Below, one piece after another: positions 5,918 to 20,716 of a DNA stretch of 23,788 nucleotides (the stretch's first letter is position 1; each line of letters opens with the position of its first letter). A model generated the notes under the pieces. The model did no database searches. It saw only the letters and a list, made by a program, of their open reading frames with translations, and had not been told where the DNA came from. The stretch comes from a virus, in the IMG/VR virus record IMGVR_UViG_3300012936_000166, positions 1-23,788 of that record; one strand, 5' to 3'. A program made the translations under genes and the position numbers.

Positions 5918-6246
5918 TATACAATCTCCACGTAACTTATTATGACGTCAACAGCATCATTCAAGCTACAACTTACCCACATTTGATTACTGGGTGCTAA
6001 TATTAATTTTTCACCTGTTGATACAGCTCTTAAACTTGTGCCTGAAGGTAAAACAGAATCTTTCAAATAATAACCTCTAACACTGTCGTCACTTTGTATT
6101 TCTACATCACAGTATACAAACTTATCTGTCAGGTTTGTAAAACTAATACCTAGCACTGTTGCTCTCTGAGATGCTGTAGTTTCCAATACTTTGACTGGAA
6201 CTACGCCTACGTTTTTGACTACTGTGTTTCTAAAAAATGTTGCCAT
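5917..6246 (-). CDS. Small beta-sandwich virion protein (109 aa)
   Basis: The protein is all-beta by appearance: NTVVKNVGVVPVKVLET, ATVLGISFTNLTDKFVYCDV, SVLPSGTSLRAVSTGEKLIL and a closing VDVIISYVEIV. Its strand order and LPSGxxL turn match the 114-aa protein at 14953-15297, so the two are likely paralogs, each placed next to large fibre genes. AAGGA precedes the ATG, 10 bases after the 1271-aa fibre stop. Its stop overlaps the next start (TAATG). It may cap, join or decorate the adjacent fibres; this is inferred from gene order. Confidence 0.8.
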   Translation of the reverse strand: MATFFRNTVVKNVGVVPVKVLETTASQRATVLGISFTNLTDKFVYCDVEIQSDDSVRGYYLKDSVLPSGTSLRAVSTGEKLILAPSNQMWVSCSLNDAVDVIISYVEIV

Positions 6247-6256
6247 CTATTTTTCC

Positions 6257-9200
6257 TTATCCAAACATAAGAGCTTGTAAAATTCCTATATCCTCTGCTT
6301 CTTGTTGGTTTACACCTGCCGCAGTACCTGCAACACCTGTAAATTGTACCCCATCATATATTTCTACTCTGGAGTCAAAAGTATTATATCTCATCATTCC
6401 TATTTCTGGTGTTGCTGGTCTTCCGCTTCCGTCACCTTTTGGAATAACAAGACCATATGTACCATCAAACTTCCAATACGCATCTGCACCTGTTTTTTCA
6501 AACAATGTCACGGCATCTGCTACTGTGTTAGTAATTGTGTTATCTTTGAAAGCAAAGTTATCAATTATAACACTACCAGTACCGTTTGCTGTAAACTGTA
6601 GATCAGCATTAGTTGTTACTGTACTTATCACATTTCCGTCAATCTGTATATCATCTACGGTTACTCTTGGGGCGTTCAATCTAGTAGAATTTACATCAAC
6701 AATAGTGTTGTTGTTTACTACAAATCTAATGACATCATCGTTACCGCCCTCAGTATTTTCTGCTGTGACTTTAGTGTTTGCATCTAAATCTTCAACACCT
6801 TTGATATTAATCCAATTTGCGCCGTTGTAGCCTTCAAATCTGTTTAGTTCACTGTTGTATCTCAGTTGTCCTGCTACTGCTGTTGGTCTTTGCGCTGTGG
6901 TACCTGATGGCAATTTTATAGCACCAGTTGAAGCAAAAATTAAATTTTCACTGCCGGGAGAAAATGTCATATCTCCTGTTGTGCTTATATCGTTTACTTG
7001 GAACGTAAATCCTTCTGCTTGTACTGCTCCTGTCCCTGCGGCTCTAAGTTCTAGATCGCTGTTACTATTAGTGGTTGTTATAAAATTATCATCTATTAGA
7101 ATATCACCAGTGCTAAAACTATTTGCAGTGATATCTCCAGTACTGTTAACATCACTCACTGTAAATGTTCCAGCGACTGTCAAATTACCAGTAACCTGTA
7201 CATCATTGTTTGGAACAATAATTTTACCTGTTCCGTTTGCTCTTAATTCTAAATTAGCATTAGAAGTTGTTGTTGTAATAAAGTTGTCATCTACTAGTAT
7301 TTCTTCAAATTGAGCTGAGCCACTGATGTCTAAATTTTGTGTAGCAGTTAAGTTTCCTGTGATTACAGTGTCACCTGTTTGATTGTAATCACCTACATGT
7401 GTAATTGTTCCTGTTATTCCTGTATCTGCAAGTGTTGTTGTTCCGTCAACTTGTAGATTGTTTGTAACTTCAAGATTATTGTTAGGAATCAAAATTTTAC
7501 CTGTTCCGTTTGCACGTAACTCAAGATCACTGTTTGAAACAGTTGTTGTAATATAATTTGTGTTGATTTCTATATCATCAACTGCAATTTCACTTACCCA
7601 CAGTTTGCTCCAAATGTTTGTGCTTGTTCCTAAACTATAAGTGTCTGTTGTGTCTGGTACTAGATTACTTGCTATACCGGCTACAATAGTAATGTTGTCA
7701 GTAGCTTCATCACCTATTGTAATATTACCGCCAATTGTTACATCACCGCTAACATCTAAATTTCCTGTAATGTCAACGTTATCTAGTAGATTAATTACAC
7801 CGCTTGCTGAGTCTACATTAATAGCACCAGCCGTGCTTGATATTGTATTTCCAGAAAGTCTTAGGTTTCCTGTGTCAATTCTTTCACCATTAATAAATGT
7901 GTTTTGCCCGTTGGTAGTAAATGTTGCACCGTTTGTAAGATTGATATTTAAATCACTTGCAACAAAGTTTACAGTACCATCTGCTTGATTAACACGGAAT
8001 AAATCACCAACTCTAAAATCACCTTTGTGATCGACTGAATTATATCTAATCTTAGCGTCATTTAATTCTATAACTTCGTCAGCCTGATCAACAGTCCCCG
8101 GATCGTTTGTAACTTCTTTGCCGTTGCCTATGTATGCTAGATTTTGTCCAATAGCGTATACAATTACACCAGCACCGTCACCTACCAGTCCTTGGTTGCC
8201 GTACACACTAGCAGAACCAATCATTCTTATTTCTGCACCAAAGTCCTGTAGATCTACGTTTTCAATAGTAGTTGCTGTCCTAGTTGCACCTATCTGTATT
8301 GAAGCTGGTGTAGTATCAAATCCTACAAATTCGGTATGTCTGCCATCAAAAACAAGAATGTCACTATTTTCACCTTCTACAGCAATCATTTGTTTTGTAA
8401 TGACAGTACTACTGTCTGTAGAAGTAAATGTAACAGTTTGTGGAGCTCCAACTGTAATTGGTCCGTTAGTAATTCCACTTACTCTTACTCTTGTTTTGCC
8501 GTCACCTTTAATGCCGTCATTGCTGTCAAAAGCATATACAGATCTATTTGCAAAATATGTAAACGAATTAAGCCATTCAATCCTAGCACCGTTGGTTGCT
8601 GTTAAACCATCAACACCTGGCGTAATAAATGTTGCTGAATGGAAAAGCATACTTGCTTCTTTGGAATTTGCTGTAGCATATGCACCATCTACATAAGGAC
8701 CTTTACCAGCATCACCGGCATTGAATCCTCTAGGATCTTCTGCTGTTGTTGTGCTACCTTGTGTGATGACTGTAACATTTTTAATGTATGGTGAGCGTGT
8801 TGTAACTTCAAAGTCTGTAGCAAAACGGAATGAATATCCATTGTCTGGAAATGTTCTGTTGCCGCCGTTACAACTAAAAACTAATCCTGATAAAAATACA
8901 TCTACACCTGTGCCTGCATCTACACTTGTACCGCTATGGAAAACTGTTAATACGCCTGTGCTTTCAACGTAGTTAGCTCCTGTAACATTATAAGTATTGC
9001 CTCCAAATGTAATTGTTCCTCCACTTACATAAGTGTGAGCATCAGTTGTTGTTCCTACATTTACAATAACGCCGCCATTTATAGAACTTGTTGTATTGAA
9101 GAAGTTACCACCACTGTAAAAACCTGTTAGTGTTAGATCTTCAACTGTTGTTTCGCCATTTAGTAACACAGCATCATTGTAACGTGTTGCTGTTGTAGGT

Positions 9201-10072
9201 TGTATTGTAACAGTCCTTATACCTTGACCTTTGAGTGTTACACCTACTGGTATTGTTAAAGGAAATGCTTCTGTGTATACACCTGGAAATACCATTACTG
9301 TATCGCCCGATGTTGCTAAACTTAAACCTTGTGTGATTGATGCTACTGGATCTTGTGGGTGCGTTCCTGTATGGGTATCATCTCCGTTTTCTGCAACATA
9401 AATTATATTGCCTGCTCGCAATGTAAGATCAACTCCTCCTACAGTCAAATTTGGTGTGTTAATAGTTGTTGCTCTTACATCATTAATATAACCTGTTGCC
9501 CAATTTTTTGTTGCGCTTCCTAAATTGTACGTGTTATTTTGATCTGGTATAATATCACTTGCAAGATCAGCATTGATCACAATGTTATCAGTATCAGCAT
9601 CACCTAATGTAATGTCGCCGTCTGCTGTTATATTTCCTGTTGCGTGTATATTACCTGTGACATTCATGTCAGAATGTACATCAACAGTACCAGTTCCGTT
9701 AGGACGAAGTTCTAAATTAGCATTACTGTCATTTGTGCTAATGACATTGCCTTCTATATCAATTGAATCTATTCTTGCCTTGTTTTGATATACAACATTG
9801 TCAAGTGTACCTAAGTTAAGAGTACCTGAAGTAGAACTAATAGTATTACCTGTTATGTCAATGCTATTGATTTGAACATTATTATCTACTATAAGATTAG
9901 TTGTTCTGATTGTGCCGTTAACATCTAGTTCATATTGAGGGGTTGTGGTTTTTATACCGACACGCTGGTTATTAACATCTAAATATAGCAGGTCTGTCTC
10001 AAATGCCAGATCTATGCCGTTACGCAATAGATTAGACTTTAAGAGCGGACCGGATATGCGACCTACAGCCAT
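6257..10072 (-). CDS. Large tail fibre/adhesin with beta-helix (1271 aa), paralog of the 1389-aa fibre
   Basis: It has the same MAVGRISGPLLKSNLLRNGI start as the 1389-aa protein, then a VGIKTTTPQYELDVNGTIRT segment typical of fibre N-terminal repeats. A pectate-lyase-like beta-helix (about 224-660) includes NIIYVAENGDDTHTG, FPGVYTEAFPLTIPVGVTLK, RSPYIKNVTVITQG and NSFTYFANRSVYA. It carries two extra segments against the paralog: about 100 residues after GFYSGGNFFNTT, and a stretch with GAPQTVTFTSTDSSTVIT. VDHKGDFRVGDLFRVN follows near 680. Several SNxxLELRANGTGK modules then lead to LPSGTTAQRPTAVAGQLRYN and a C-terminal IPKGDGSGRPATPEIGMMRY module. There is no propeller. GAGGAG precedes the ATG. 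The inferred role is a host-binding fibre. Confidence 0.9.
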   Translation of the reverse strand: MAVGRISGPLLKSNLLRNGIDLAFETDLLYLDVNNQRVGIKTTTPQYELDVNGTIRTTNLIVDNNVQINSIDITGNTISSTSGTLNLGTLDNVVYQNKARIDSIDIEGNVISTNDSNANLELRPNGTGTVDVHSDMNVTGNIHATGNITADGDITLGDADTDNIVINADLASDIIPDQNNTYNLGSATKNWATGYINDVRATTINTPNLTVGGVDLTLRAGNIIYVAENGDDTHTGTHPQDPVASITQGLSLATSGDTVMVFPGVYTEAFPLTIPVGVTLKGQGIRTVTIQPTTATRYNDAVLLNGETTVEDLTLTGFYSGGNFFNTTSSINGGVIVNVGTTTDAHTYVSGGTITFGGNTYNVTGANYVESTGVLTVFHSGTSVDAGTGVDVFLSGLVFSCNGGNRTFPDNGYSFRFATDFEVTTRSPYIKNVTVITQGSTTTAEDPRGFNAGDAGKGPYVDGAYATANSKEASMLFHSATFITPGVDGLTATNGARIEWLNSFTYFANRSVYAFDSNDGIKGDGKTRVRVSGITNGPITVGAPQTVTFTSTDSSTVITKQMIAVEGENSDILVFDGRHTEFVGFDTTPASIQIGATRTATTIENVDLQDFGAEIRMIGSASVYGNQGLVGDGAGVIVYAIGQNLAYIGNGKEVTNDPGTVDQADEVIELNDAKIRYNSVDHKGDFRVGDLFRVNQADGTVNFVASDLNINLTNGATFTTNGQNTFINGERIDTGNLRLSGNTISSTAGAINVDSASGVINLLDNVDITGNLDVSGDVTIGGNITIGDEATDNITIVAGIASNLVPDTTDTYSLGTSTNIWSKLWVSEIAVDDIEINTNYITTTVSNSDLELRANGTGKILIPNNNLEVTNNLQVDGTTTLADTGITGTITHVGDYNQTGDTVITGNLTATQNLDISGSAQFEEILVDDNFITTTTSNANLELRANGTGKIIVPNNDVQVTGNLTVAGTFTVSDVNSTGDITANSFSTGDILIDDNFITTTNSNSDLELRAAGTGAVQAEGFTFQVNDISTTGDMTFSPGSENLIFASTGAIKLPSGTTAQRPTAVAGQLRYNSELNRFEGYNGANWINIKGVEDLDANTKVTAENTEGGNDDVIRFVVNNNTIVDVNSTRLNAPRVTVDDIQIDGNVISTVTTNADLQFTANGTGSVIIDNFAFKDNTITNTVADAVTLFEKTGADAYWKFDGTYGLVIPKGDGSGRPATPEIGMMRYNTFDSRVEIYDGVQFTGVAGTAAGVNQQEAEDIGILQALMFG

Positions 10073-10182
10073 CTTCTCTCCTCAATACGGGCATCCTGTG
10101 CCTCCAACCTGTTCAGACTTATGTCTCTATCGCTGGTTGACCACGGTTTGTACCTGCAGAACAATGGTCGCTGTAACTGCAT
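10063..10182 (-). CDS. Possible 39-residue leader ORF overlapping the fibre start
   Basis: An open frame starts at an ATG about six bases after the late promoter box and runs through the leader. It ends at a TAG ten bases into the 1271-aa gene, in another frame. It encodes MQLQRPLFCRYKPWSTSDRD, then a charged, helix-like ISLNRLEAQDARIEERRWL end. There is no ribosome binding site, so it would need leaderless translation. It could be a small protein, a translational control ORF or chance. The leader may instead act as structured RNA. Confidence 0.2.
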   Translation of the reverse strand: MQLQRPLFCRYKPWSTSDRDISLNRLEAQDARIEERRWL

Positions 10183-10187
10183 TAATA

Positions 10188-10215
10188 GTATTTATCGTTA
10201 TTGTGAAAATGTGCG
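10188..10215 (-). promoter_or_regulatory. Late promoter with upstream element for the 1271-aa fibre unit
   Basis: The minus strand carries CGCACATTTTC (10205-10215), then GATAAATAC (10188-10196). The same 11-mer lies at the same distance from a GTAAATAC box before the gp67-like gene. The predicted leader to the fibre ATG at 10072 is about 110 bases and can form nested pairings: CAACC with GGTTG enclosing AGAC-ATAA-GTCT. Confidence 0.65.
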
Positions 10216-10218
10216 TTG

Positions 10219-13200
10219 TTAGCCTAGTAAAAGGCTCCAAAGCTGGCCTTCGTTTTCCATGTATTCAGCGTCAACTCCGCCAATGTCTCCTGCGGCTGGA
10301 ATCCATGCATTTGTAGTTCCGTCATATACTTCAAGTACATTAGAATATGTATTCCATCTTATTTCGCCAGCTATGCCTAATGCACCTCTTGTAGTGTCGT
10401 CTCCAAAAGGTACAACAATGCCAGTTTCGCCAACAAATTTATGCCAACCACCAAATCCTGTTGGATTTCCTGTTCCAGATAATGCAAATGATCCTGCAAA
10501 TGATGCTTTGCCTGTTCCGTCATTTAGAAATGAATTTAAACTCAATTTGATATCACCGAATACTGCTTTACCTGTTCCATCTCTTTTAAGTTCTAAATCA
10601 CTGTTAGATACACTTGTACGTATTGTGCTATTGTCTAGGTATATGTCATCTACATCCAGTCTATGTATTGTAAGACCATTGCCGTTTATCTCGCCTACTA
10701 TTTTTGTACTGTCAGTTGTGCCAATAGCACCATTTACTGTAAGCAAAATATTATTTGCAGTTGCATCAGCTGTAATACTTGTTTGTCCGTCTGCTGAAAA
10801 AATACCTCCAAAGAATACATTATCAGTTGCATAGCCTTCAAAACTGTTGCTATCAGTGTTGAATCTTATGTTACCTGCTGTTGCTATTCTTTGAGCAGTA
10901 GTACCCTTAGGTAATTGTAAACTACCAGTGCTAGACACTGAGAAGTTTGCATCTGTGGTTAAAACTAAATCAGGTAATGTGCTATCTCCGTGCCTAGTTG
11001 TAATAGTTTCGTCTATTACTCCTATATTTTCCAAATAAACGTGTCCAGTACCTTGGCCTCTCAATTCTAAATTTGAGTTTGAATTTGTTGTTGTAATGTA
11101 GTTGTTTTCAATAAAAATATCACCAGTTGAATATGCTTCTGCTGTAACATCTTGATTTGTAAAAATATTGCTTGTTGAAGTAATAGTTCCAACTTGTAGA
11201 TTGTTTGTAATATCTACATCTTCTTGTAATTTCACCAAACCAGTACCAGTCGTTGCTACGCTGTAAGGAACACTTAATGAATATTGTTTAACTACATCGG
11301 TAGTATTGCCTACTATAAACATTTTAGTTCCGTCTGGGCTGATATGTATTCCTGACGGATTTCCTCCTGTAAGAAGAAATCCTATATGCGTAGCAGTTGA
11401 TATATCAAATGCAGTCTGACATCTAAATTCGTCTACGCCATTACCACGTGTGCCTACAATAAATAATCTGTGACCGTCAGGACTCCATTCTATACCAAAT
11501 GGTTCTATATCTATATTACCTACATACAATTCTTGATTAAATGTTGCTGTTGATATATCAAACGCAGATGACAAATTATATTCGTAAATTTTGTCATTTT
11601 GATTTCCTGTAATGTACATCTTAGTACCGTCATTATTAAAATCTAGGCCAAAATTATCATTATCTTTACCACTTGTCACTAATGTTTGTGTAAAACTTGA
11701 AGTTGATACATCGAAGCCTGTAGTAAGAGCATACTCATGAACATTGCTGTTGCCTACGCCTGTAACAAACATTTTTGTTCCGTTAGTATTAAATTTGACT
11801 GCTGTAGGATTTGGACATTGAGTAACTGCAAAACTATCTACAAACGTCACTGTAGATGTCAGATCAAATCCTGTTGAAACTGTGTATTCGTTTACATCGT
11901 CTCCTGTTGTACCAACAATAAACATTTTTGTTCCGTCATTGTTAAAAGTAATACCTCTAGGGTTGTTTTCCTGAGAATTAATATTAAATTGTGTGCCTAG
12001 AGTTGCTGTGATAGAAGCATTATGAGCTCTTATATCTAAATTTTGATTGCCTGATTGTGTTGTTATTACATTTCCAGCAAAGTCTATTTGTTCAAAGGTT
12101 GCGTTTGTTGCTCCTACAAAATTTCCTGTTGCTGTTACATTACCTGTTACTGTGTTGTTACCAGTTTGCGTTCTATCTCCAACATGTGTAACAGCACCAG
12201 TAATACCTGTATCTCTTATTGTTGTTGTTCCAACTATTGTTGTAGCATTTGTTATTTCAAGATTGTTATTAGGTAATAATATTTTGCCAGTTCCGTTAGC
12301 ACGTAGTTCAAAGTCACTATTTGATTCTGTAGTGGTAATATAATTTGTTTCAAACAACAAATCATCTGCTTGGATTGATCCTAAATGTGCTTTGCTCCAA
12401 GTTTTAGAAGCAGTACCTAAACTATATAATCCACTTACATCTGGCACTAGATTTTGACTAAAAGGAGTATTAAAATCTATTGTATCTCCTGGTTCATTAC
12501 CAAAACCTATTGCACTGCCGCCGATTGAAAAATCTCCAGTCATGCTTACATTGCCGGTTACATTTGTGTTATCTAACAAATTAATTTGTCCGGAAAAACT
12601 ATCGAAATCAATACGTCCTTGGAGTGAACTTATAGTATTGTCCTTAATTAGAAATTCACCTACTCTAATTTCTTCTCCGTCAATAATTGTTGTATTTCCG
12701 TTTGTAGTAAGTGTCAAACCGTTAAGCGCATCTACTTCTGCTTCGGTAATTGTAATTGTTGTTTCGCCAGTGTCTTGGTTAATGAAAAACTGATCGCCGA
12801 CACGATAGTTGCCTCTGTGATCAACTGTCTGATAATAAATGTTTGCATTATTTGCTTTGCTAATTTCTTGGCTCTGTATTACTTGACTTGGATCATTTTC
12901 AACATTTTTACCTAGACCAATATACGCCATATTATGTTGTATGAGATAAAATAAAACACCAGATCCGTCACCTACAGCGCCAAAGTTTCCGTATACGTTT
13001 GCACTTCCAATTGCACGTAATTCTGCACCAAACACAGTTGTACTTCCGTCTGAAGATAAATGGCCTGTGCTTCCATTTGTTGCATACAATCCTCTATTAG
13101 CAAAGTATGTAAATGAATTTAGCCATTCAACTCTCACTCCATTTGTCATTGTTAGAGCATCTACACCAGGAGTAATAAATGTAACTGAATGGAATAACAT

Positions 13201-14388
13201 GCTTGCTTCTTGACTAGTGCTTAAAACACTTGCTCCGTCAACTAAGGCACCTTTACCTGCATCGCCTTCGTCAAAGCCTCTTGGATCGCTTGCACTGACA
13301 ACACTACCTTTTGTAATCACAGTTACGTTTTTGATGTAAGGACTTCTAGTGGTCACAGTTGCGTTACTAGCAAAACTAAATCCGTGTCCTGGACTGTAAA
13401 AGTCTTTGATTGTAAGATTTTGTACAGTTGTTTCTCCGTTCATTAAGAAACAGTTGTTTGTGTTTGTAGCAGAAGTTGGTTTAATTATTGTGTTTCTAAA
13501 ATCTAATCCAGCTACTGTTACATTTGTTGGAATTTCCAAAGGAAATATTTCTTCGTATTCTCCAGGATATATGTAGATTGTGACAGGCCCTTGTACACTA
13601 GCATCTGCTCTTGCAAGTGCTTGCTTAACTGTAAGCAAAGGTGCATACATATTGTCGCCAACATTGGTGTCGTTACCTCCTTTAGCCACATAGAAAATAT
13701 TTCCTTGAGGAACATGAAAACTTGTTGTTCCTGATGTTACACCTTGCGCTATGACTGTTGCAGATTCAAGTGTATCTATATTTAGGCTATCCCATTTCTT
13801 TTGTGTAGCACCAATGTTATATGTATTTGGTTGATCCGGAATAATATCAGTTGCTATATCTGCATTTAGAATCAAATTATCTTCATCGTCATTACCAATC
13901 GTAATGTTACCGTCAGCTGTTATGTTTGCTGTTGAATGTAAATTACCAAATACTTCTAAACCATTTGCAACTTCAACTGTTCCAGTTCCATTTGGTAATA
14001 AATCTATATTACTATTTGTGTTGTAACTAGAAATAATATTATCGTCTATATTGATATTATCTGTTTGTAATGCACTTAAAACTATAGCTTCAGGCGAATT
14101 CAAATTAATTGGGCCAACAGGTGCACTTATTGTATCTCCGTTAGGACCTAAACCAAAATCTAAATCACCAGTATCTAATTGATTGTTGATGCCGAATATG
14201 ACACCTTTTGTAGTTCCAAGAACATGTATATCATCTGTGCCTGTATTACCTGCGATAGCAATTTTGCCGTTTACTACATCAAGATGAATTAACGCTGTAT
14301 CAGATACAGTGTTTTTGAAATTTAAATTTATATTATTGCGTAATAAATTTTCTTGTAATAAAGGTCCGGATATTCTACCTACAGCCAT
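10219..14388 (-). CDS. Large tail fibre/adhesin with beta-helix and five-repeat beta-propeller (1389 aa)
   Basis: The N-terminus MAVGRISGPLLQENLLRNN is shared with the 1271-aa fibre and probably attaches both to the same virion site. Next come beta modules with NGTGTVEV (about 130-150), then a pectate-lyase-like beta-helix (about 230-510) with NIFYVAKGGNDTN, VTIYIYPGEYEEIFPLEIPT, RSPYIKNVTVIT and NSFTYFANRG. VDHRGNYRVGDQFFIN follows. Copies of ITTTESNSDFELRANGTGK lie near 690. Residues about 795-1048 hold five repeats of about 50 residues (PRGITFNNDGTKMFIVG type), a likely beta-propeller absent from the paralog. The C-terminal part has LPKGTTAQRIATAGNIRFN and IVVPFGDDTTRGALGIAGEI modules. AAGGAG precedes the ATG. 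The role inferred is host recognition; the receptor is unknown. Confidence 0.9.
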   Translation of the reverse strand: MAVGRISGPLLQENLLRNNINLNFKNTVSDTALIHLDVVNGKIAIAGNTGTDDIHVLGTTKGVIFGINNQLDTGDLDFGLGPNGDTISAPVGPINLNSPEAIVLSALQTDNINIDDNIISSYNTNSNIDLLPNGTGTVEVANGLEVFGNLHSTANITADGNITIGNDDEDNLILNADIATDIIPDQPNTYNIGATQKKWDSLNIDTLESATVIAQGVTSGTTSFHVPQGNIFYVAKGGNDTNVGDNMYAPLLTVKQALARADASVQGPVTIYIYPGEYEEIFPLEIPTNVTVAGLDFRNTIIKPTSATNTNNCFLMNGETTVQNLTIKDFYSPGHGFSFASNATVTTRSPYIKNVTVITKGSVVSASDPRGFDEGDAGKGALVDGASVLSTSQEASMLFHSVTFITPGVDALTMTNGVRVEWLNSFTYFANRGLYATNGSTGHLSSDGSTTVFGAELRAIGSANVYGNFGAVGDGSGVLFYLIQHNMAYIGLGKNVENDPSQVIQSQEISKANNANIYYQTVDHRGNYRVGDQFFINQDTGETTITITEAEVDALNGLTLTTNGNTTIIDGEEIRVGEFLIKDNTISSLQGRIDFDSFSGQINLLDNTNVTGNVSMTGDFSIGGSAIGFGNEPGDTIDFNTPFSQNLVPDVSGLYSLGTASKTWSKAHLGSIQADDLLFETNYITTTESNSDFELRANGTGKILLPNNNLEITNATTIVGTTTIRDTGITGAVTHVGDRTQTGNNTVTGNVTATGNFVGATNATFEQIDFAGNVITTQSGNQNLDIRAHNASITATLGTQFNINSQENNPRGITFNNDGTKMFIVGTTGDDVNEYTVSTGFDLTSTVTFVDSFAVTQCPNPTAVKFNTNGTKMFVTGVGNSNVHEYALTTGFDVSTSSFTQTLVTSGKDNDNFGLDFNNDGTKMYITGNQNDKIYEYNLSSAFDISTATFNQELYVGNIDIEPFGIEWSPDGHRLFIVGTRGNGVDEFRCQTAFDISTATHIGFLLTGGNPSGIHISPDGTKMFIVGNTTDVVKQYSLSVPYSVATTGTGLVKLQEDVDITNNLQVGTITSTSNIFTNQDVTAEAYSTGDIFIENNYITTTNSNSNLELRGQGTGHVYLENIGVIDETITTRHGDSTLPDLVLTTDANFSVSSTGSLQLPKGTTAQRIATAGNIRFNTDSNSFEGYATDNVFFGGIFSADGQTSITADATANNILLTVNGAIGTTDSTKIVGEINGNGLTIHRLDVDDIYLDNSTIRTSVSNSDLELKRDGTGKAVFGDIKLSLNSFLNDGTGKASFAGSFALSGTGNPTGFGGWHKFVGETGIVVPFGDDTTRGALGIAGEIRWNTYSNVLEVYDGTTNAWIPAAGDIGGVDAEYMENEGQLWSLLLG
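11245..12005 (-). repeat. Five-repeat beta-propeller-like domain within the 1389-aa fibre
   Basis: Five consecutive units of about 48-51 residues share the pattern P.G(I/V).F..DGTKMF(I/V)(V/T)G......V.EY.L...FD(I/V)S(T)A. Examples are ITFNNDGTKMFIVG, VKFNTNGTKMFVTG, LDFNNDGTKMYITG, IEWSPDGHRLFIVG and IHISPDGTKMFIVG. This pattern fits a five-bladed propeller, or part of a larger one closed by flanking strands. Fold and ligand are inferred. Confidence 0.8.
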
Positions 14389-14405
14389 AACTACTCCTTG
14401 CAGTA

Positions 14406-14414
14406 GTATTTATT
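14406..14414 (-). promoter_or_regulatory. Late promoter box, AATAAATAC
   Basis: Minus-strand AATAAATAC lies in the 28-base gap before the 1389-aa fibre gene, at seven of eight matches to the late consensus. The expected start site falls just before the AAGGAG ribosome binding site, leaving a very short leader. Confidence 0.6.
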
Positions 14415-14416
14415 GG

Positions 14417-14950
14417 TTATTTGTCAAAGTTATGTAGGACAGTAATCGGCTTGCCAACATCGGGTGCTGATGTAAATTTTATATACCACCCGTCAGCATA
14501 CGGTGAATTAGGACCAGCTAAGTTGCCGCTAGTACTTTGTTCAAGAGTGTAGTTTGTTGTTGATATTTGAAAAACATTTTCTACAAATACAAGAACATTT
14601 TGTGCGGCTGCCGGAACTGGAAAATCAGCATCGCCGCTTGCTAATGGACCAAATACTGTTTCTGTAGCATCGCCATTACCTAGATTTTGTTGTGTAATGC
14701 CTGGGTCTTGATTTGGTTCTTTATATCGTAATTCTCTCCACGCACCATTTTGATACGCTTCAAATTGATCATCATCTGTATTATATCTAAAATGTCCATT
14801 TGCTGGACTACTAGGACGCTGTGCTTCTGTTCCTTTTGGAACAAGCACAACATTTGTGCTGTCTATTATAACCTGATCGTTAATGTCATACTTCACACCT
14901 TTTCCGTATATATTACGTAAGTTTGTATTTTGAGCTTTTAATAATCTCAT
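14417..14950 (-). CDS. Virion protein with fibre-shared GTxAQRP module (177 aa)
   Basis: The N-terminal half has a short helical start, then VLVPKGTEAQRPSSPANGHF and RYNTDDDQFEAYQNGAWREL. This is the same small module found near the ends of both large fibres (LPSGTTAQRPTAVAGQLRYN and similar). The C-terminal half (about residues 90-177) is beta-rich, with VLVFVENVFQISTTNYTLEQ and a PYADGWYIKFTSAP segment. That resembles the small domains of fibre-region proteins. The start at 14950 was chosen because GGAAG lies seven bases before this ATG and the upstream gene stops at 14953. A GTG six bases earlier would place the site too close. A late promoter for the next gene follows directly. Confidence 0.8.
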   Translation of the reverse strand: MRLLKAQNTNLRNIYGKGVKYDINDQVIIDSTNVVLVPKGTEAQRPSSPANGHFRYNTDDDQFEAYQNGAWRELRYKEPNQDPGITQQNLGNGDATETVFGPLASGDADFPVPAAAQNVLVFVENVFQISTTNYTLEQSTSGNLAGPNSPYADGWYIKFTSAPDVGKPITVLHNFDK

Positions 14951-14952
14951 AA

Positions 14953-15297
14953 TCACACTTCCAAATAACTTACAACGGCTGCCAAGTTTCCGTTAACGTC
15001 TCCAACAAAAGAAAGTTTATCTCCCGCATCTAAAACAATTCTTTCAGAATCAAAAGTAAATGTTTCTCCTGCAGGTAAACTTAATTGTCTCACAACACAG
15101 TTTAATGCTGTTGACAGAGCTTCGCCGCTTGGTAGTAGATGCATATCAAATAATGCTGTTTCGGCTTCTGGACTTGCACCGTTTGGGTCATATGTGTTAC
15201 AAACCATAATGTTTGTTATTGCATATCTTTTTCCTGCGGGTACTGTTATAATATCTTGTTGTGCCCCTGTGCTTAATGTTAATGTTTCTATAGCCAT
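14953..15297 (-). CDS. Small beta-sandwich virion protein (114 aa)
   Basis: The protein is predicted all-beta, with MAIETLTLSTGAQQDIITVP, GKRYAITNIMVCNTYDPNGA, ALFDMHLLPSGEALSTALN and a closing strand VSYLEV. Its outline is a strand with a YAITNI/VLGISF-type core, then LPSGxxLxxxxx, a strand containing a glycine turn, and an SY-hydrophobic-E end. The 109-aa protein at 5917-6246 has the same outline, so the two are probably distant paralogs. AAGGAAAAGAT precedes the ATG. Its stop lies two bases before the corrected start of the 177-aa gene. It may be a fibre-attachment or decoration protein; this is inferred from size, fold type and neighbours. Confidence 0.78.
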   Translation of the reverse strand: MAIETLTLSTGAQQDIITVPAGKRYAITNIMVCNTYDPNGASPEAETALFDMHLLPSGEALSTALNCVVRQLSLPAGETFTFDSERIVLDAGDKLSFVGDVNGNLAAVVSYLEV

Positions 15298-15306
15298 ATC
15301 TTTTCC

Positions 15307-16353
15307 TTAAAATAACATGCTATAAACTAGCGATCTGTTATTGCTTATTATTTCGTCATTTGTGCTACTACTATTTACAAAAAATAGTCCACTTCCCCCA
15401 AGACCCTGAGATTTAGAATAAATGATAGTTCCGTCTGCTGGTGCAGTTGGATCTGTTTGTGCATCATCTGCATGAGGAGTAGCTCTTATTAGTAGGTTAT
15501 CATTTATTTCAACATGTCCTGATGCTGGTGATTCTAAAATTAAATTGTCATTTGTGTTTAATGCTTGAATCTTGTTATTTTGGATTTGAATTTGATCAAG
15601 TTGTAGTCTATTTTGATACACATTTGCAATTACAGTTCCGTCAACTGTAACTTCAACTACGCTTTCATTTCCAGTAGTGTCAATGTCTCTTGTTCTTACT
15701 TTAGTGTCACCGTCTTCGATACCTGGTTGCAAAATATTTGATGCACTAAATGCTACATAGTCTACTAGAGCTTTTGTATTTACAAGACCATCATTTTGTA
15801 ATACAGGACCACCACCTGGGTCTGTAATAATAAAATCATTTTGTATAGCATCAAACGTGTAATTAAATAAATTTCTTTCATAGTTGCCTGTGCCTGCAAC
15901 ATTTACAACACTTGCTGGTGTTGTAATATAAAGAGTACTTTCTGCGTTTATGCTGTTCGTCGTAATTGGCATTATGTTACCATTTACATCTTGAAATCTA
16001 AATGCTCCTGTACCACTACTACCACCTGTAACAAATGCTGTTTGTTCATTAAATACCAAACGTGCCGCAGGTAAACTTCCTCTATCTATTTCTATACCAG
16101 AAATATATCCTAAAGATGCACTAACTCCTGCTCCTGCTTCGCCTTCGTTCAATGTTATAATATTATCAGCAATAGTAGTATCTGTAGATTCTACAGTAGT
16201 AGTTGTTCCTCTAACTTCTAGATTGCCGTTTATTACAGTAGTTCCTTGTATAGAACTTGCGCCTGCTGTTGTATCAAGTGTAATTGTTCCTGTAGCACCG
16301 TTTGCTACAACAATTTTATAATTTCCGTCTGTTACTTTTACTATCTTTGACAT
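15307..16353 (-). CDS. Fibre-like virion protein (348 aa)
   Basis: The protein is beta-rich and low in charged helices, like phage fibre or baseplate-associated proteins. Residues 30-70 contain TTVINGNLEVRGTTTTVEST followed by DTTIADNIITLNEGE, a segment I associate with tail fibre-like proteins of marine myoviruses. Near residue 255 is IQIQNNKIQALNTNDNLILE followed by SPASGHVEINDN. This is a divergent copy of the IxxNxI-x-SNxxLELRAxGTG module that recurs in the two large fibres downstream. The C-terminus (NRSLVYSMLF) resembles their hydrophobic ends. GGAAG precedes the ATG. It is coupled by overlap to the 122-aa gene upstream and lies 9 bases before the 114-aa gene. It is probably a short fibre or adaptor. 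Confidence 0.8.
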   Translation of the reverse strand: MSKIVKVTDGNYKIVVANGATGTITLDTTAGASSIQGTTVINGNLEVRGTTTTVESTDTTIADNIITLNEGEAGAGVSASLGYISGIEIDRGSLPAARLVFNEQTAFVTGGSSGTGAFRFQDVNGNIMPITTNSINAESTLYITTPASVVNVAGTGNYERNLFNYTFDAIQNDFIITDPGGGPVLQNDGLVNTKALVDYVAFSASNILQPGIEDGDTKVRTRDIDTTGNESVVEVTVDGTVIANVYQNRLQLDQIQIQNNKIQALNTNDNLILESPASGHVEINDNLLIRATPHADDAQTDPTAPADGTIIYSKSQGLGGSGLFFVNSSSTNDEIISNNRSLVYSMLF

Positions 16354-16721
16354 TACACTTCCTTATACTTTAATAAAACAACACTTGTTGTCGAATCGTT
16401 TTCAACAATCCAATTATAAGTAATTCCTTTGAAATCTTCTATAAGATCATAAACAATTTTTGAAACAAATGTAAAGGACATAGTATAATCAACATAGCCC
16501 TTTACACTCATTTCGTTATTGTCTAAATCTTCAGCGTCTTTAGCAACTAAAGTACAAACGCCTTTGTTTCCCACATCATCTTTCACTTCAAAAGTCGTTG
16601 GTGAAATTTGTGCTACAATTTTTCCTAACAAAGAAAATTTTGCACTTCCAATTTTCACATTCACTATTAAATCCTTAAGATTTTGTAGTATATCAAAAAA
16701 GACGTTTATTGGACGTTTCAT
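16353..16721 (-). CDS. Hypothetical structural-region protein (122 aa)
   Basis: The family is not recognised. The protein is a mixed alpha/beta sequence without signal peptide or membrane segment: an N-terminal helix (NVFFDILQNLKDLIVNVKIG), beta-type stretches around KIVAQISPTTFEVKDDVG, and a C-terminal half with aromatic strands (YVDYTMSFTFVSKIVYDLIE). It starts 10 bases after the 153-aa gene with only a weak AAGGC site. Its stop overlaps the start of the 348-aa gene (TAATG), so the two are probably translationally coupled. Operon context suggests a minor virion or assembly protein. Nothing in the sequence defines its job further. Confidence 0.75.
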   Translation of the reverse strand: MKRPINVFFDILQNLKDLIVNVKIGSAKFSLLGKIVAQISPTTFEVKDDVGNKGVCTLVAKDAEDLDNNEMSVKGYVDYTMSFTFVSKIVYDLIEDFKGITYNWIVENDSTTSVVLLKYKEV

Positions 16722-16731
16722 AGATTATGCC

Positions 16732-17193
16732 TTATGCGTCATCTGTGAAGTCTGTATCATCAGTACCAACTAATGTGTTATCATCACCAGCTTCTTCAAC
16801 TTCTGCCGCACCATCTGAAGTACTTGTGCTAAAGTTCCATGCAACAGACTTTCCGTCAAATGCATTTGAGCCAGTATTACTTGGTTTTGCTAATGTTGCT
16901 TTACGTCCTGCAATTTTGCTTACACCGTAGGTTTCGCCGTCATCCATTTTGAATGAAATTGCCATTTCACCTGCTGATAAAGACGCAGGCAATATGCCAG
17001 TTTTCAGTGTACAATCAAACGTACCAGCTGTTCCAATTTCTTCACAACGGAATTTTTTTGATCCTAGCTGTTTTACGATGTAACCTTCTTTAACTGCTGT
17101 GCCGTTATGAAAATTTACTTTGATTTCGTTGCCGGCAGCTGTAGGTCCTACACCTTCAACTCCAAACAATCTTTTATTAAGTGGTCTTCCCAT
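16732..17193 (-). CDS. Small virion-type protein, MGRPLNKRLFG family (153 aa)
   Basis: No function can be assigned firmly. The N-terminus MGRPLNKRLFGVEGVG resembles short structural proteins of marine T4-like phages. The middle has beta-strand character, with YIVKQLGSKKFRCEEIG and a segment ending GRKATLAKPSNTG. The last 25 residues are acidic (AAEVEEAGDDNTLVGTDDTD). The start at 17193 was chosen because AAGGAGAAAACAA directly precedes this ATG. A longer in-frame start at 17319 would lie inside a terminator hairpin and add a Cys/Arg-rich stretch with no ribosome binding site. It is the first gene after the late promoter at 17287 and precedes a chain of closely spaced structural genes. A virion role is likely from context. 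Confidence 0.82.
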   Translation of the reverse strand: MGRPLNKRLFGVEGVGPTAAGNEIKVNFHNGTAVKEGYIVKQLGSKKFRCEEIGTAGTFDCTLKTGILPASLSAGEMAISFKMDDGETYGVSKIAGRKATLAKPSNTGSNAFDGKSVAWNFSTSTSDGAAEVEEAGDDNTLVGTDDTDFTDDA

Positions 17194-17220
17194 TTGTTTT
17201 CTCCTTTTTAGAAGTCCGAT

Positions 17221-17269
17221 GCGGGTTCTATCCGCTACGCTGTGGGTACAGCATAAGTCCGCCTTGCGG
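17221..17269 (-). other. Structured 5' leader with three consecutive hairpins
   Basis: The leader between the late promoter and the 153-aa gene is GC-rich for this genome. On the minus strand it holds three small hairpins in a row: CCGC-AAG-GCGG (17259-17269), GCTGT-ACCC-ACAGC (17239-17252) and GCGG-CCGC (17221-17235). The plus-strand 7-mer AAGTCCG occurs at 17212 and again at 17255. The leader may stabilise the message or regulate translation; its function is unknown. Confidence 0.4.
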
Positions 17270-17286
17270 CACACTATCTGACGTAT

Positions 17287-17295
17287 GTATTTATC
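17287..17295 (-). promoter_or_regulatory. Late promoter box, GATAAATAC
   Basis: Minus-strand GATAAATAC matches the T4 late consensus at seven of eight positions. It lies just after the terminator at 17303-17334 and about 95 bases before the 153-aa gene. It is the likely promoter of the 153-122-348-114-177 aa gene group. Confidence 0.65.
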
Positions 17296-17302
17296 AAAAG
17301 AG

Positions 17303-17334
17303 AAAAAAGGCCCTACCAAGTTAATGATAGAGCC
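17303..17334 (-). terminator. Intrinsic terminator at the end of the island
   Basis: On the minus strand GGCTCTATC pairs with GGTAGGGCC (9 bp with two G-U pairs, 8-base loop) and is followed by six T. It ends whatever transcript covers 17335-17745. A late promoter box begins eight bases after the T-run. An open frame extending upstream of the 153-aa gene would begin inside this hairpin, which argues against that longer start. Confidence 0.8.
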
Positions 17335-17546
17335 TCGAATAAAAGTGATAGGTAGGACTTAATGATCACCTACAAATGCCAGTACAGATCATGTCTGTGT
17401 TACCAGCATAGCCCAGTATCGGATAGTTACTTCCAAATCTACATCTCTGTGTCTCCACAGTCATGCAATGCTACTACAGCTACTAGCCAAGTTACGCCTC
17501 TGTAAACGCCGTTCCTTGCACTATCTAACTAAAGGATATCTCCTAA
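17335..17546 (-). ncRNA. Candidate structured RNA between gp23 and the downstream gene
   Basis: About 210 bases without a convincing gene contain several complementary segments on the minus strand. A 6-bp closing pair joins GATAGT (17520-17525) to ACTATC (17422-17427). CTGTG-GAGA-CACAG (17447-17460) is a perfect hairpin with a GNRA-type loop. ACAGA-CATGA-TCTGT (17384-17398) has outer GCTGG/CTGGC pairing that includes two G-U pairs. A possible pseudoknot uses GTAGG/CCTAC (17369-17373 with 17352-17356) and GTGAT/ATCAC (17365-17369 with 17345-17349). An intrinsic terminator follows directly, and an upstream promoter is likely. It does not match tRNA or another RNA I recognise. The pairings were found by reading, with no energy or covariation test. 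Confidence 0.33.
17366..17464 (-). CDS. Possible 32-residue Cys-containing small ORF
   Basis: The ORF reads MTVETQRCRFGSNYPILGYA and continues to a C-terminus with Cys-Thr-Gly-Ile-Cys-Arg. The three cysteines and Gly/Tyr content look protein-like, but there is no Shine-Dalgarno sequence before the ATG. Two TAG stops lie just upstream in frame, and the start overlaps the GNRA hairpin of the candidate RNA. It is listed as an alternative reading of the region. A non-coding RNA explains the structure equally well or better. Confidence 0.2.
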   Translation of the reverse strand: MTVETQRCRFGSNYPILGYAGNTDMICTGICR

Positions 17547-17549
17547 GTT

Positions 17550-17567
17550 ATGTTATTAATATAACAT
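17550..17567. repeat. AT-rich perfect inverted repeat
   Basis: ATGTTAT and ATAACAT arms of 7 bases flank a 4-base TAAT spacer. It sits between the 28-codon ORF and the structured region. No T-run suited to termination follows on the minus strand. It may be a weak hairpin, a processing site or a protein-binding site. Confidence 0.5.
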
Positions 17568-17581
17568 ATAAAAAATAAAAG

Positions 17582-17668
17582 TCAACCTTTTTTTAATAAA
17601 AAGTTAATCTTTTTTTCACGATGCTGTTTGAGTAATTGTTTGAAGCACCAAAACGTGAATCTATCCAT
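17582..17668 (-). CDS. Putative 28-residue basic small protein
   Basis: The ORF begins MDRFTFWCFKQLLKQH and ends in a Lys-rich LLKKG. An AGGAG sequence lies seven bases before the ATG (plus-strand complement at about 17676-17680), as good as the sites of the large genes here. The product is small, basic and amphipathic: aromatic residues lie in the first ten positions and lysines dominate the rest. It could be membrane-associated or RNA-binding, but no family is recognised. It is the first possible gene after the candidate promoter at 17745, and the same transcript would continue into the structured region before terminating near 17303. Support comes from the ribosome binding site and context. 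A 28-codon ORF can arise by chance in AT-rich sequence. Confidence 0.42.
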   Translation of the reverse strand: MDRFTFWCFKQLLKQHREKKINFLLKKG

Positions 17669-17744
17669 AACACTTCTCCTCGTTAAAGGTTAAAGTGCGT
17701 TCCTTCGCTTTATGCTACTTCCGTCCCGTAGGATGAACGTACAG

Positions 17745-17752
17745 TATTTAGT
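17745..17752 (-). promoter_or_regulatory. Candidate late promoter box, CTAAATAC
   Basis: Minus-strand CTAAATAC shares the TAAATAC core with the other late boxes of the window and lies two bases beyond the T-run of the gp23 terminator. It would start a new transcript for the island 17335-17745. The first base differs from the consensus, and the same 8-mer also occurs inside gp23 (17355 plus 1 kb, near 18355), so the motif alone is not decisive. Confidence 0.5.
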
Positions 17753-17754
17753 CA

Positions 17755-17781
17755 AAAAAATAGGCCCCGTAGGGCCTATTT
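17755..17781 (-). terminator. Intrinsic terminator after gp23
   Basis: On the minus strand a perfect 9-10 bp stem (AATAGGCCC with GGGCCTATT, loop TACG) is followed directly by a run of T. It lies 20 bases after the gp23 stop and should end the gp67-21-22-23 transcript. A late promoter box begins immediately after the T-run. Confidence 0.9.
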
Positions 17782-17801
17782 AATATTTTGCAAAGCTAAA
17801 C

Positions 17802-18974
17802 TTAGCTGAAGCTTACGTTACCGTTTGTGATAGCAACGTTAGCTAGATAGTCAGCCGCGTTACCTAGTGACGAAGCTGTGTTTGATAGCTCAACATAACC
17901 ATAACGTGTCATAAATGATACGACTGGCTCGAATGTTGACGGATCTAATACAACACCGCTTGACATTAGTGGGATATATGGGCAATAGAACGCTGCCGCG
18001 TCTGATTCGCTTGATCCCTTGTAACCAACAAGTACGTTTGCACTGTCGGCAGCATATGTGTTTACGTACACTTTCATTGCGTTGTTTAGAGTACCAACCA
18101 TCTTTGTGTTAGTTGGAGCTTCAAACGAACCTTCTGTTGTACGTGCAAATGCTGATGTTGTAGCAGACTGTAGAATTGTTAACGCAAATGGGCTAACAAC
18201 TGCAAAGTTACCAGCGCCTCTACGTGTACGCTGAGCGATTAGGTTAGCCGCTCTGTTGATTTGAACTGCTAATGCCGCATGTTCGTCACCAACGAAAGTT
18301 GCTGTACCAGATACCGCTGCCTGGTCGTATGTTTCTACTGCTGTACCAGCAAGTGTATTTAGAGATGCTAGGACCTCTTGATCGATTTCAGCAGTAATCT
18401 CTTGAGCCAATGCGGCCATGATTTCTGCTTCTACATCGATACCATGCTGTGACTGTGCGTCCTGAGCTGACTCAAAAGTCCAACGTGCTGATAGCTTACG
18501 TGATTTAGCTTCAACAGTTTGCTTTAAGATCTGGATGCTTAGTCTGTTACCTGCTGAACCTTCAAGAGCGGCAGTTGCTTCTGCTGTTCCGCCTGTTGCA
18601 CCTGAATATGCTTCAGCAATTTTAAATGGTGAAAGTGCTTCCTCACCAGCTACTGCTCCGCTTGCGCCTGAGCCAGCTGTATCTGAGTAGCGTACTCTCA
18701 ATGTGTGGATTTGACCCACTGGACCTGTCATCGGCTGTACACCAACTAGCTCGTTTGCTATAACTGTTGGCATTACACGTCTGATAACGGGTAGGATAAC
18801 ACGATTAAGTGTTGCGACATTACCGGCAGATGTTGCGCCTGCTGTTGCAGTCTCTGAAAGATACTTGCGTGTATTTTCTAGAGTAGCCGCCATTACAGAT
18901 TTCTTTGTGCCTTGTAGGCCTTCAAGAAGTGCGCTTTTTGTATCCTGCCAGCGACTTTCTAATAGTTCTGACAT
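17802..18974 (-). CDS. 23: Major capsid protein gp23 (short form, 390 aa)
   Basis: gp23 builds the hexamers of the capsid shell. Clear T4-type gp23 signatures are NVATLNRVILPVIRRVMPTV (residues 52-71), IANELVGVQPMTGPVGQIHT, KLSARWTFESAQDAQSQHGI and the C-terminal RYGYVEL block. An N-terminal propeptide is expected. The best gp21 site is LSE at residues 39-41, just before TATAGATSAGN, leaving a mature protein of about 349 residues. The precursor is well below T4 gp23 (521 aa). The stretch between the GQIHTLRVRY segment and LSIQILKQTVEAKSRKL is only about 55 residues, so the region that holds the T4 insertion domain seems reduced. The start has AAGGAGAAAACT before ATG, and a strong terminator follows the stop. 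Confidence 0.97.
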   Translation of the reverse strand: MSELLESRWQDTKSALLEGLQGTKKSVMAATLENTRKYLSETATAGATSAGNVATLNRVILPVIRRVMPTVIANELVGVQPMTGPVGQIHTLRVRYSDTAGSGASGAVAGEEALSPFKIAEAYSGATGGTAEATAALEGSAGNRLSIQILKQTVEAKSRKLSARWTFESAQDAQSQHGIDVEAEIMAALAQEITAEIDQEVLASLNTLAGTAVETYDQAAVSGTATFVGDEHAALAVQINRAANLIAQRTRRGAGNFAVVSPFALTILQSATTSAFARTTEGSFEAPTNTKMVGTLNNAMKVYVNTYAADSANVLVGYKGSSESDAAAFYCPYIPLMSSGVVLDPSTFEPVVSFMTRYGYVELSNTASSLGNAADYLANVAITNGNVSFS

Positions 18975-18984
18975 AGTTTTCTCC

Positions 18985-20079
18985 TTAATTTAAACCAGCA
19001 AGACGTCTAATGTCAACGACATTATCATCTGCTTTTGAACTAACGTTAGTTTCTGTTTCTCGGTTGCCTGTTACTTCTGTGCCTTCTGTAATTACTGCCT
19101 TCTGCTTCGCTGGAGTTTTGCCGTCAATAACTGCCGGTAGGTACTTGTCAAATGCAGACTGTAGTCTGTTTGTTTGTACTGATTCCAGTAAATCTGTCAT
19201 GATGTCTCTTTGACCCTTGTTTAAAGGCTCAATGAGTGAATCAATTGTCTGTTTGCGTTCAGCGATTTGTGCCATACGCTTGATTTCGGTATCTTTAGCT
19301 TCTGCTAAATTCTTTGCTTTTACAGCAAACGCTTTTGCTTCTGCTAGTTGTTTGTCTTTTGCCGCTACAACCTTAATAAGTTTTGCAGTCTCTGACTTCT
19401 CATTCAGATGACTTGTTGCATACTCGGCTGCAAACGCTTCAAACATCTTACGACCAAAATCATTTTTACGTGCTTCTTCAATATCTTCTTTCAATCCTTT
19501 GATTTCACCTTTTAGTGTGTTTTCAACAATTGTAGATACTTTATCGGCACTTTTCGCAATGAAGTTTTGTTTAACTTCAGCAAATTTATTTTTAGCTTCT
19601 TTGATAAGTTTTACCTTAGTTTCAGCTAAATCTTTTTTGTCTTCGTGGAACTCTGCAATTTCTTTTGCAAGTGCGTCTACAATGAAGTTCTCAAGCATTG
19701 TGAACTTGTTAGCTATTGCTTTTTGATCTTCATGTAGTTCAGAAACTTCTTTCTTTAGCGATTCCATTACAAAACCTTTTAGTAATTCAGCATTTTCACG
19801 CTGTGCTACTGCATATTTTGCTTTGGCTTCTGCTAGTTGCTTACGGTCATCCGCAAACTCTGCAATTTCTGACTCTAAACGCTCTGAAACCATAGCATCG
19901 ATAGCTTCTACCATAGTAGTTTTATCATGCTCATATTTCTTTGCAAATTCTTCGCGGAGCTCAGCAGTCACAGACTGTCTGTTCTCTTTGATCTTTGCTT
20001 CCCAAGCGTTTTCAATTTCGGCACGTACTTCTTCTGAAACTACATCATTTTCAAAAAGTGTTTTAAGTGCGTCCAACAT
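18985..20079 (-). CDS. 22: Prohead scaffolding core protein gp22
   Basis: gp22 forms the inner scaffold around which gp23 assembles, and is destroyed by gp21 during maturation. The 364-residue protein is almost wholly charged alpha-helix and coiled coil, with no hydrophobic core motif. It is longer than T4 gp22 (269). Residues about 66-225 contain several degenerate repeats with an EI.EF/L.ED(K/R) signature (EIAEFADDRK, EVSELHEDQK, EIAEFHEDKK, EIKGLKEDIE). Four LAE sites (82-84, 151-153, 245-247, 258-260) and LIE at 282-284 fit the gp21 cleavage rule. The start has a strong AGGAG site. It follows gp21 by 13 bases and precedes gp23 by 10. The assignment rests on position, composition and cleavage sites. 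Confidence 0.93.
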   Translation of the reverse strand: MLDALKTLFENDVVSEEVRAEIENAWEAKIKENRQSVTAELREEFAKKYEHDKTTMVEAIDAMVSERLESEIAEFADDRKQLAEAKAKYAVAQRENAELLKGFVMESLKKEVSELHEDQKAIANKFTMLENFIVDALAKEIAEFHEDKKDLAETKVKLIKEAKNKFAEVKQNFIAKSADKVSTIVENTLKGEIKGLKEDIEEARKNDFGRKMFEAFAAEYATSHLNEKSETAKLIKVVAAKDKQLAEAKAFAVKAKNLAEAKDTEIKRMAQIAERKQTIDSLIEPLNKGQRDIMTDLLESVQTNRLQSAFDKYLPAVIDGKTPAKQKAVITEGTEVTGNRETETNVSSKADDNVVDIRRLAGLN

Positions 20080-20092
20080 TATGTTTCTCCTT

Positions 20093-20716
20093 TTATTGGA
20101 GTCTGCTGATTAAATTAATCAGAGATTCTTTTAAGTACTTTTGAGCCTTTGTGTCATGTCTTGTTGCCTGTGCTAATTCGTAAGCCTTGTACCCTCCGCG
20201 GGCATTCATTAAGTGTTCGTATATTGGCGTAGGGTACGCTCCTGGAGCACTTGGTTGTGCAACAACGTCCACTGTAATAATTTCAAAATCAGAGACAGTA
20301 TTATTACCGTCTTCTGAAACATTTCCACTACCTCTTGATGAGACGCCTAGTTTCACACCACTTTCAAGCATGGTGCGAACTAGGTTTCCCATTGGTGTTG
20401 GTAGAATTTTTAATTTACCATAACCGTTTGCGCCGTCCATCCAAGTTTCTTGGATCATATGACTTACACGGTCTAAGTTAATGTTAAGTCCTTCTGGATG
20501 ATCAACCTCACCGAGAACACTATATCCTCCTGTTATTTGATCATTGAGAGTTTTGACAGCCCTGCCAATTTCATTTACAGGATACACACGCTGGTTAGCA
20601 TTGCGTACTCCGCCTTGTATACAAATACCTTTCATATACAAGTCTTTTCCTTCGTTGGCATTCTCCACAACAATCTGTGCTTGGTCGAATGTCAAATGCT
20701 CTCGTAAATTAATCAT
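20093..20716 (-). CDS. 21: Prohead core protease gp21 (T4-type serine protease, peptidase S77)
   Basis: gp21 is the T4 maturation protease. Inside the prohead it cleaves the core and capsid proteins after (L/I)-x-Glu sites. At 207 residues the protein is close to T4 gp21 (212). Visible family motifs are the histidine in GEVDHPEGLN (His73), the nucleophile region GVSSRGSG (residues 124-131, Ser126 or Ser127), and SDFEIITVDVVAQPSAPGA (142-160) with a conserved Asp and the closing strand. It lies between the gp67-like core gene and the gp22 scaffold, as in T4. An AGGAAG site precedes the ATG. Candidate cleavage sites of the right type are present in gp22, gp23 and the gp67-like protein. The assignment is firm. 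Confidence 0.96.
   Translation of the reverse strand: MINLREHLTFDQAQIVVENANEGKDLYMKGICIQGGVRNANQRVYPVNEIGRAVKTLNDQITGGYSVLGEVDHPEGLNINLDRVSHMIQETWMDGANGYGKLKILPTPMGNLVRTMLESGVKLGVSSRGSGNVSEDGNNTVSDFEIITVDVVAQPSAPGAYPTPIYEHLMNARGGYKAYELAQATRHDTKAQKYLKESLINLISRLQ

Follow-up and report, generated by a model that had tools for sequence, protein, structure and literature searches.

The gap downstream of the major capsid protein gene gp23 in IMG/VR virus record IMGVR_UViG_3300012936_000166 (the whole stretch of 23,788 nt was analysed and is called the window) is predicted to carry two small units, a late mRNA which begins with a glutamine riboswitch and encodes a 28-aa protein, and a manA RNA nested in it. 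Judged from sequence comparison, the account of a two-unit cargo site, with the riboswitch-led 28-aa mRNA, a free-standing manA RNA and a nitrogen-directed peptide, seems to us probable. A wider picture is tentative and rather doubtful: that in a large marine non-cyanophage T4-like lineage the glutamine-gated late tiny protein tunes host nitrogen assimilation, together with a manA RNA acting in trans from a tRNA slot.

The initial annotation had described an island between two terminator-promoter cassettes which would give one late RNA of about 400 nt. The coordinates of the flanking cassettes were confirmed, and such cassettes recur in the gp23-downstream gaps of relatives. Support was found for an insulated unit of about 437 nt, with late transcription predicted to start near 17739 and to end near 17303, and also for its absence from the T4 layout. 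The signals had thus been read correctly, but the 28-aa gene (17668-17582), a sigma70-type promoter (17585-17558) and three Rfam elements had been missed. The idea of one RNA without a protein gene did not hold, as the island has a conserved 28-aa ORF behind a riboswitch and a nested manA with its own sigma70 promoter. The island and the next leader together contain three known RNA elements (Rfam: RF01739, RF01745, RF02980). The single-RNA reading is therefore only partly supported, and we replace it with a predicted late mRNA led by a riboswitch, within which a manA RNA is nested under its own promoter.

Organization of the site downstream of gp23

The borders of the site and its next gene are as follows.

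17802..18974 (-): gp23 major capsid protein gene (PF07068, E 2e-98), upstream neighbour of the island
17758..17781 (-): gp23 terminator, 10-bp stem (17781-17758) and T-run; also found after gp23 in relatives
17751-17744 (-): first predicted T4-type late promoter box, CTAAATAC, with predicted +1 near 17739
17301..17336 (-): second terminator, 12-bp stem (17336-17307) and T-run; predicted end of the manA RNA and of the late read-through RNA
17295-17287 (-): second predicted late promoter box, GATAAATAC, a motif which precedes the 153-aa gene
17191..17273 (-): freshwater-2 RNA leader (RF02980), 76.6 bits against a cut-off of 49.9; contains the RBS and start codon of the 153-aa gene
16732..17193 (-): 153-aa gene, its product mostly beta in the model

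The gp23 terminator and the second terminator were the two best terminator-like sites in a 6.5 kb scan (14000-20500). Over the whole window, ATAAATAC was present in four copies on the minus strand and in none on the plus strand. The 153-aa gene had 211 relatives in IMG/VR viral contigs, and 80 of these 211 matches were kept. The gaps fell into 37 types. The ACTAAATA motif followed the gp23 terminator in many of the 37 types, and a GATAAATAC-type box was found about 100 nt 5' of the next gene in nearly all of them. Among 31 distinct sequences having the late box, 30 showed a distance of 5-6 nt from TAAATA to the first base of aptamer stem P1. The TATA box of a T4 late promoter lies about one helical turn 5' of the start site (PMC2988020). 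By motif, strand bias and fixed spacing the boxes of the window are candidate T4-type late promoters, and the spacing of 5-6 nt places the aptamer at the 5' end of the predicted late RNA.

The freshwater-2 leader was detected in 36/36 representative gaps, slightly under the cut-off in three (L087, L109, L115). No isolate match to the product of the 153-aa gene was found; by fold, it matched only uncharacterised phage proteins, and PDB matches were not significant. Elsewhere in the window (6257-14388) there are two very long ORFs of 1271 and 1389 aa without Pfam match.

Glutamine riboswitch and WC peptide

Three elements follow the first late promoter box directly.

17694..17741 (-): type-I glutamine riboswitch aptamer (RF01739), cmscan 50.0 bits against a cut-off of 35
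17671..17697 (-): expression-platform hairpin CACUUU/GAAGUG, which encloses the Shine-Dalgarno (SD) sequence AGGAG (17680-17676) and adjoins P1
17582..17668 (-): 28-aa ORF, here called WC peptide, MDRFTFWCFKQLLKQHREKKINFLLKKG, preceded by the aptamer and SD AGGAG

The match to RF01739 spans model positions 1-53 and is above the Rfam gathering cut-off, with P1 located at the predicted +1 of the late RNA. Of the 36 representative gaps from relatives, 18 contained glutamine aptamers, once in tandem. The aptamer takes a 5' UTR position, with the SD and a conserved ORF directly 3' of it in all 61 testable sequences. The SD hairpin pairs in 19/19 distinct tails, including the covarying variants CACUU/GAGUG, CACC/GGUG and CACUC/GAGUG. 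A clear alternative fold for an ON or OFF state was looked for and not found, and the predicted fold contained the SD hairpin whether or not the native aptamer was present. Membership in this riboswitch class suggests that the ligand would be glutamine.

A search from a five-sequence alignment revealed 61 viral loci with relatives of the WC peptide, most of them after gp23. Counting the window, 61 of the 62 sequences carry the aptamer directly 5' of the peptide, and the one other sequence is on a contig with only 19 bases upstream of the ORF. The SD and start codon stand at a fixed distance, and the median pairwise dN/dS was 0.16 over 31 distinct sequences, which means purifying selection. In cellular genomes the peptide was found on one contig, from a MAG labelled Euryarchaeota, with terminator, late-type box, aptamer and peptide; this contig is probably viral.

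The WC peptide is cationic (charge +6). Searches of Pfam and PHROGs gave only weak matches, all of unknown function. In cyanobacteria the small protein IF17 (gifB), whose gene is controlled by a glutamine riboswitch, inactivates glutamine synthetase and increases with glutamine (PMC7760959). By analogy with such proteins, we hypothesize that the WC peptide most likely binds an enzyme or regulator of host nitrogen assimilation. The nitrogen role rests on this analogy, because no gene for glutamine synthetase or PII was found in 36 related records. Two other peptide types, of 50 and 64 aa, occupy the same place after the aptamer in other relatives, and the presence of at least three unlike peptide types behind the aptamer counts against our preferred explanation.

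manA RNA

The second unit starts at the end of the 28-aa ORF.

17558..17585 (-): sigma70-type promoter, TTGACT-16-TATATT with extended -10; its -35 box shares bases with the stop codon of the 28-aa ORF
17338..17551 (-): manA RNA (RF01745 match at 17549-17342, 41.3 bits, E 5.5e-9), closed at its ends by a short helix that the Rfam model does not cover

The score of 41.3 bits is below the RF01745 gathering cut-off of 55.2, while relatives at the gp23 site with the same promoter reached 55-62 bits (maximum 61.9). The window copy was aligned over the full length of the model (positions 1-192), pseudoknot included. This pseudoknot, which was marked uncertain by the original authors, who described manA as a potential 5' UTR element (PMC2864571), pairs in 62/62 sequences, with both sides changed in a compensatory manner in five. 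In the rows gathered by pattern, part of the 5' strand had been set by the search pattern itself, and for this reason the gp23-site set is less biased with respect to the pseudoknot.

A promoter with TTGAC and extended -10 was found 5' of manA in 24/24 representative gp23-site copies but in 0.46% of random windows; a terminator stood 3' of it in 22/24, compared with 5% of shuffles. These terminators keep their position, differ in sequence and do not overlap manA. The closing helix, which joins the predicted start to the bases just 5' of the terminator, exceeded 200/200 partner shuffles, although relatedness inflates such tests; the helix of the window copy is short (4 bp). Promoter, closing helix and terminator are thus conserved across relatives, as compared in sequence.

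manA was present in 23 of 36 representative gaps. Elsewhere it is a leader, as in Pelagibacter phage Mosig, where rubrerythrin lies about 22 nt downstream. The gp23-site copies do not stand in such a cis-regulatory 5' UTR position: they have their own terminator, and the next gene is separately promoted. The own promoter and the shared stop at the second terminator therefore indicate that manA at the gp23 site is a free-standing RNA and not a leader. Its transcription would follow from these signals, and any role in trans is likewise inferred.

Variable cargo in related viruses

In relatives, gp23 and the 153-aa gene were 184 to 2,940 nt apart. Some gaps lack the island (L033, L071), some have aptamer-peptide units without manA (L023, L280) and others manA without aptamer (L035, L019). 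tRNAs occurred in two of 36 representative gaps; in L010, tRNA-Gly fills the promoter-RNA-terminator slot which is held by manA in the window. An iscU-like ORF was identified within the site of L004 (3116-4000). Variable content between fixed edges therefore makes this gap a cargo site, and since many related viruses have the block as well, it resembles a store of small regulatory RNAs.

Several other contents were observed. In L280 (701-1407), iscU and iscA lie immediately 5' of the aptamer-peptide unit, and in L276 and L278 a class II (D, K, N) tRNA-synthetase-like protein and a tRNA-like sequence take this place. The manA slot of L023 (3400-3700), L276 (1180-1330) and L280 (1640-1790) has a sigma70-type promoter, a mini-ORF of 18-20 aa ending in GGMS or GRGMS, and a terminator; the mini-ORF is possibly a leader peptide, or the slot holds an unknown RNA. 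In the gaps of L018, L020 and L064, a ~90-aa ORF begins within a few bases of a late-promoter box, which would leave its mRNA almost without a leader.

Proposed mechanism and alternative explanations

We propose that the gap downstream of gp23 serves as a cargo site, flanked at either end by a terminator plus late promoter, and that it houses two units here. In the first, late transcription would begin near 17739, where the glutamine aptamer starts. Free glutamine would fold the aptamer and alter the access to the SD in the adjoining hairpin, and translation of the 28-aa cationic protein would thereby track host glutamine. The direction is probably ON, as we infer from cyanobacterial gifB. The elements of this unit, their spacing and their conservation can be read in the sequences; its transcription, ligand and switching direction are deduced from them. 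In the second unit, the sigma70 promoter would yield a manA RNA of about 210 nt, probably early. The late RNA would read through manA, and both RNAs would stop at the second terminator. Against this proposal speak the score of the window manA under its cut-off, its closing helix of 4 bp and the lack of a clear alternative fold around the SD.

The strongest competitor keeps the riboswitch and ORF as described and gives the 28-aa protein a target outside nitrogen metabolism (lysis timing, membrane or capsid assembly), glutamine only reporting the host state. The late promoter, the capsid-gene neighbour and the charge of +6 would fit it, as would the 36 related records in which nitrogen genes were not found, whereas other small proteins governed by glutamine riboswitches have roles in nitrogen control (PMC7760959). 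We regard it as a serious possibility, if not quite the one to be expected. It is unlikely that manA is a regulated leader of the 153-aa gene, acting as a riboswitch whose terminator is controlled. The class is cis-regulatory and elsewhere stands before genes, such as rubrerythrin in Mosig and others without terminator, and four gp23-site copies have no clear terminator (L098, L109, L132, L144). However, in nearly all relatives a late promoter and a freshwater-2 leader of its own precede the 153-aa gene, the terminators have no sequence in common and are clear of manA, and tRNAs sit in the same slot.

That the aptamer chiefly controls transcriptional read-through into manA and its terminator, with the 28-aa ORF incidental, is very improbable. 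Aptamer and manA would share one predicted late RNA and co-occur in many relatives, but the ORF is conserved at protein level (the dN/dS above) and keeps a constant spacing of SD and start, and either element also occurs without the other (aptamer-peptide in L023 and L280, manA in L035 and L019). The earlier reading, an anonymous late noncoding RNA of about 400 nt, can hardly be maintained: the start and stop signals do predict a late RNA of ~437 nt, but the island includes a riboswitch and a conserved ORF, and also a manA RNA with its own promoter. So we keep to the cargo site with a riboswitch-led mRNA and a free-standing manA RNA.

Comparison with known systems

Cyanophage origin was considered and rejected. 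The top gp23 matches (about 66-69% identity) were large T4-like phages such as Phosso, Vibrio 2.275.O and PA5oct, and psbA was absent from the 40 records of the lineage in which it was looked for, which counts against such an origin. Glutamine riboswitches are said to have been regarded by Klahn et al. (2018) as limited to cyanobacterial genomes, whereas the riboswitch phages here were without psbA in the tested records.

The cyanobacterial glnA RNA of gifB type (RF01739) resembles the window in aptamer consensus, in a small-protein gene 3' and in translational layout. The aptamers of this lineage differ in belonging to T4-like phages, in starting at a predicted late promoter of the phage and in preceding unrelated proteins, 28-64 aa long. 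In cyanophage DSL-LC02 and T7-like phage MedDCM-OCT-S28-C3, as in the window, a small ORF, here DUF4278-like, stands behind a glutamine-I or -II aptamer. These ORFs are of YRG type (PF14105 E 7e-4 and 3e-3, both below cut-off) and unrelated to the WC peptide. The T7-like phage L303 (AP013539; 701-885) has a glutamine-II aptamer and a DUF4278-like 38-aa ORF about 500 nt 5' of the major capsid gene, and by this arrangement is the same predicted theme in an unrelated phage.

Methylophilales phage Melnitz has an aptamer, SD hairpin and ATG nearly identical to those of the window. Its glutamine riboswitch was published as a control of tmRNA (PMC9004378). The aptamer (L002, 6000-6048) lies 3' of the tmRNA matches, which end at 5992 or earlier, and directly 3' of it there is an unannotated 32-aa ORF starting MTLYQQWCY with the same SD hairpin. 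The likeness of this ORF to the WC peptide is only suggestive (HMM E 0.47, not significant) and is not taken as proof of homology. These positions suggest that the riboswitch regulates the overlooked 32-aa ORF, which would be simpler than control of the tmRNA lying upstream.

If our account is true, this phage lineage would gain a testable metabolite-sensing control over a late, capsid-adjacent gene, and a tiny-protein family invariably linked to a glutamine riboswitch would be added. In a literature search, we did not find a paper joining gp23 with a glutamine riboswitch. The freshwater-2 element (RF02980) matches in full length, including RBS and AUG, with no difference seen, and here precedes the 153-aa gene. 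The manA RNA (RF01745; PMC2864571) is alike in full-length match and pseudoknot, and the gp23-site copies differ in having their own promoter and terminator, with the window copy scoring below the cut-off; manA, known since 2010, may thus also be a self-contained RNA gene. Each of the parts is of a known kind, and their arrangement, the WC peptide family and the free-standing manA appear to be new.
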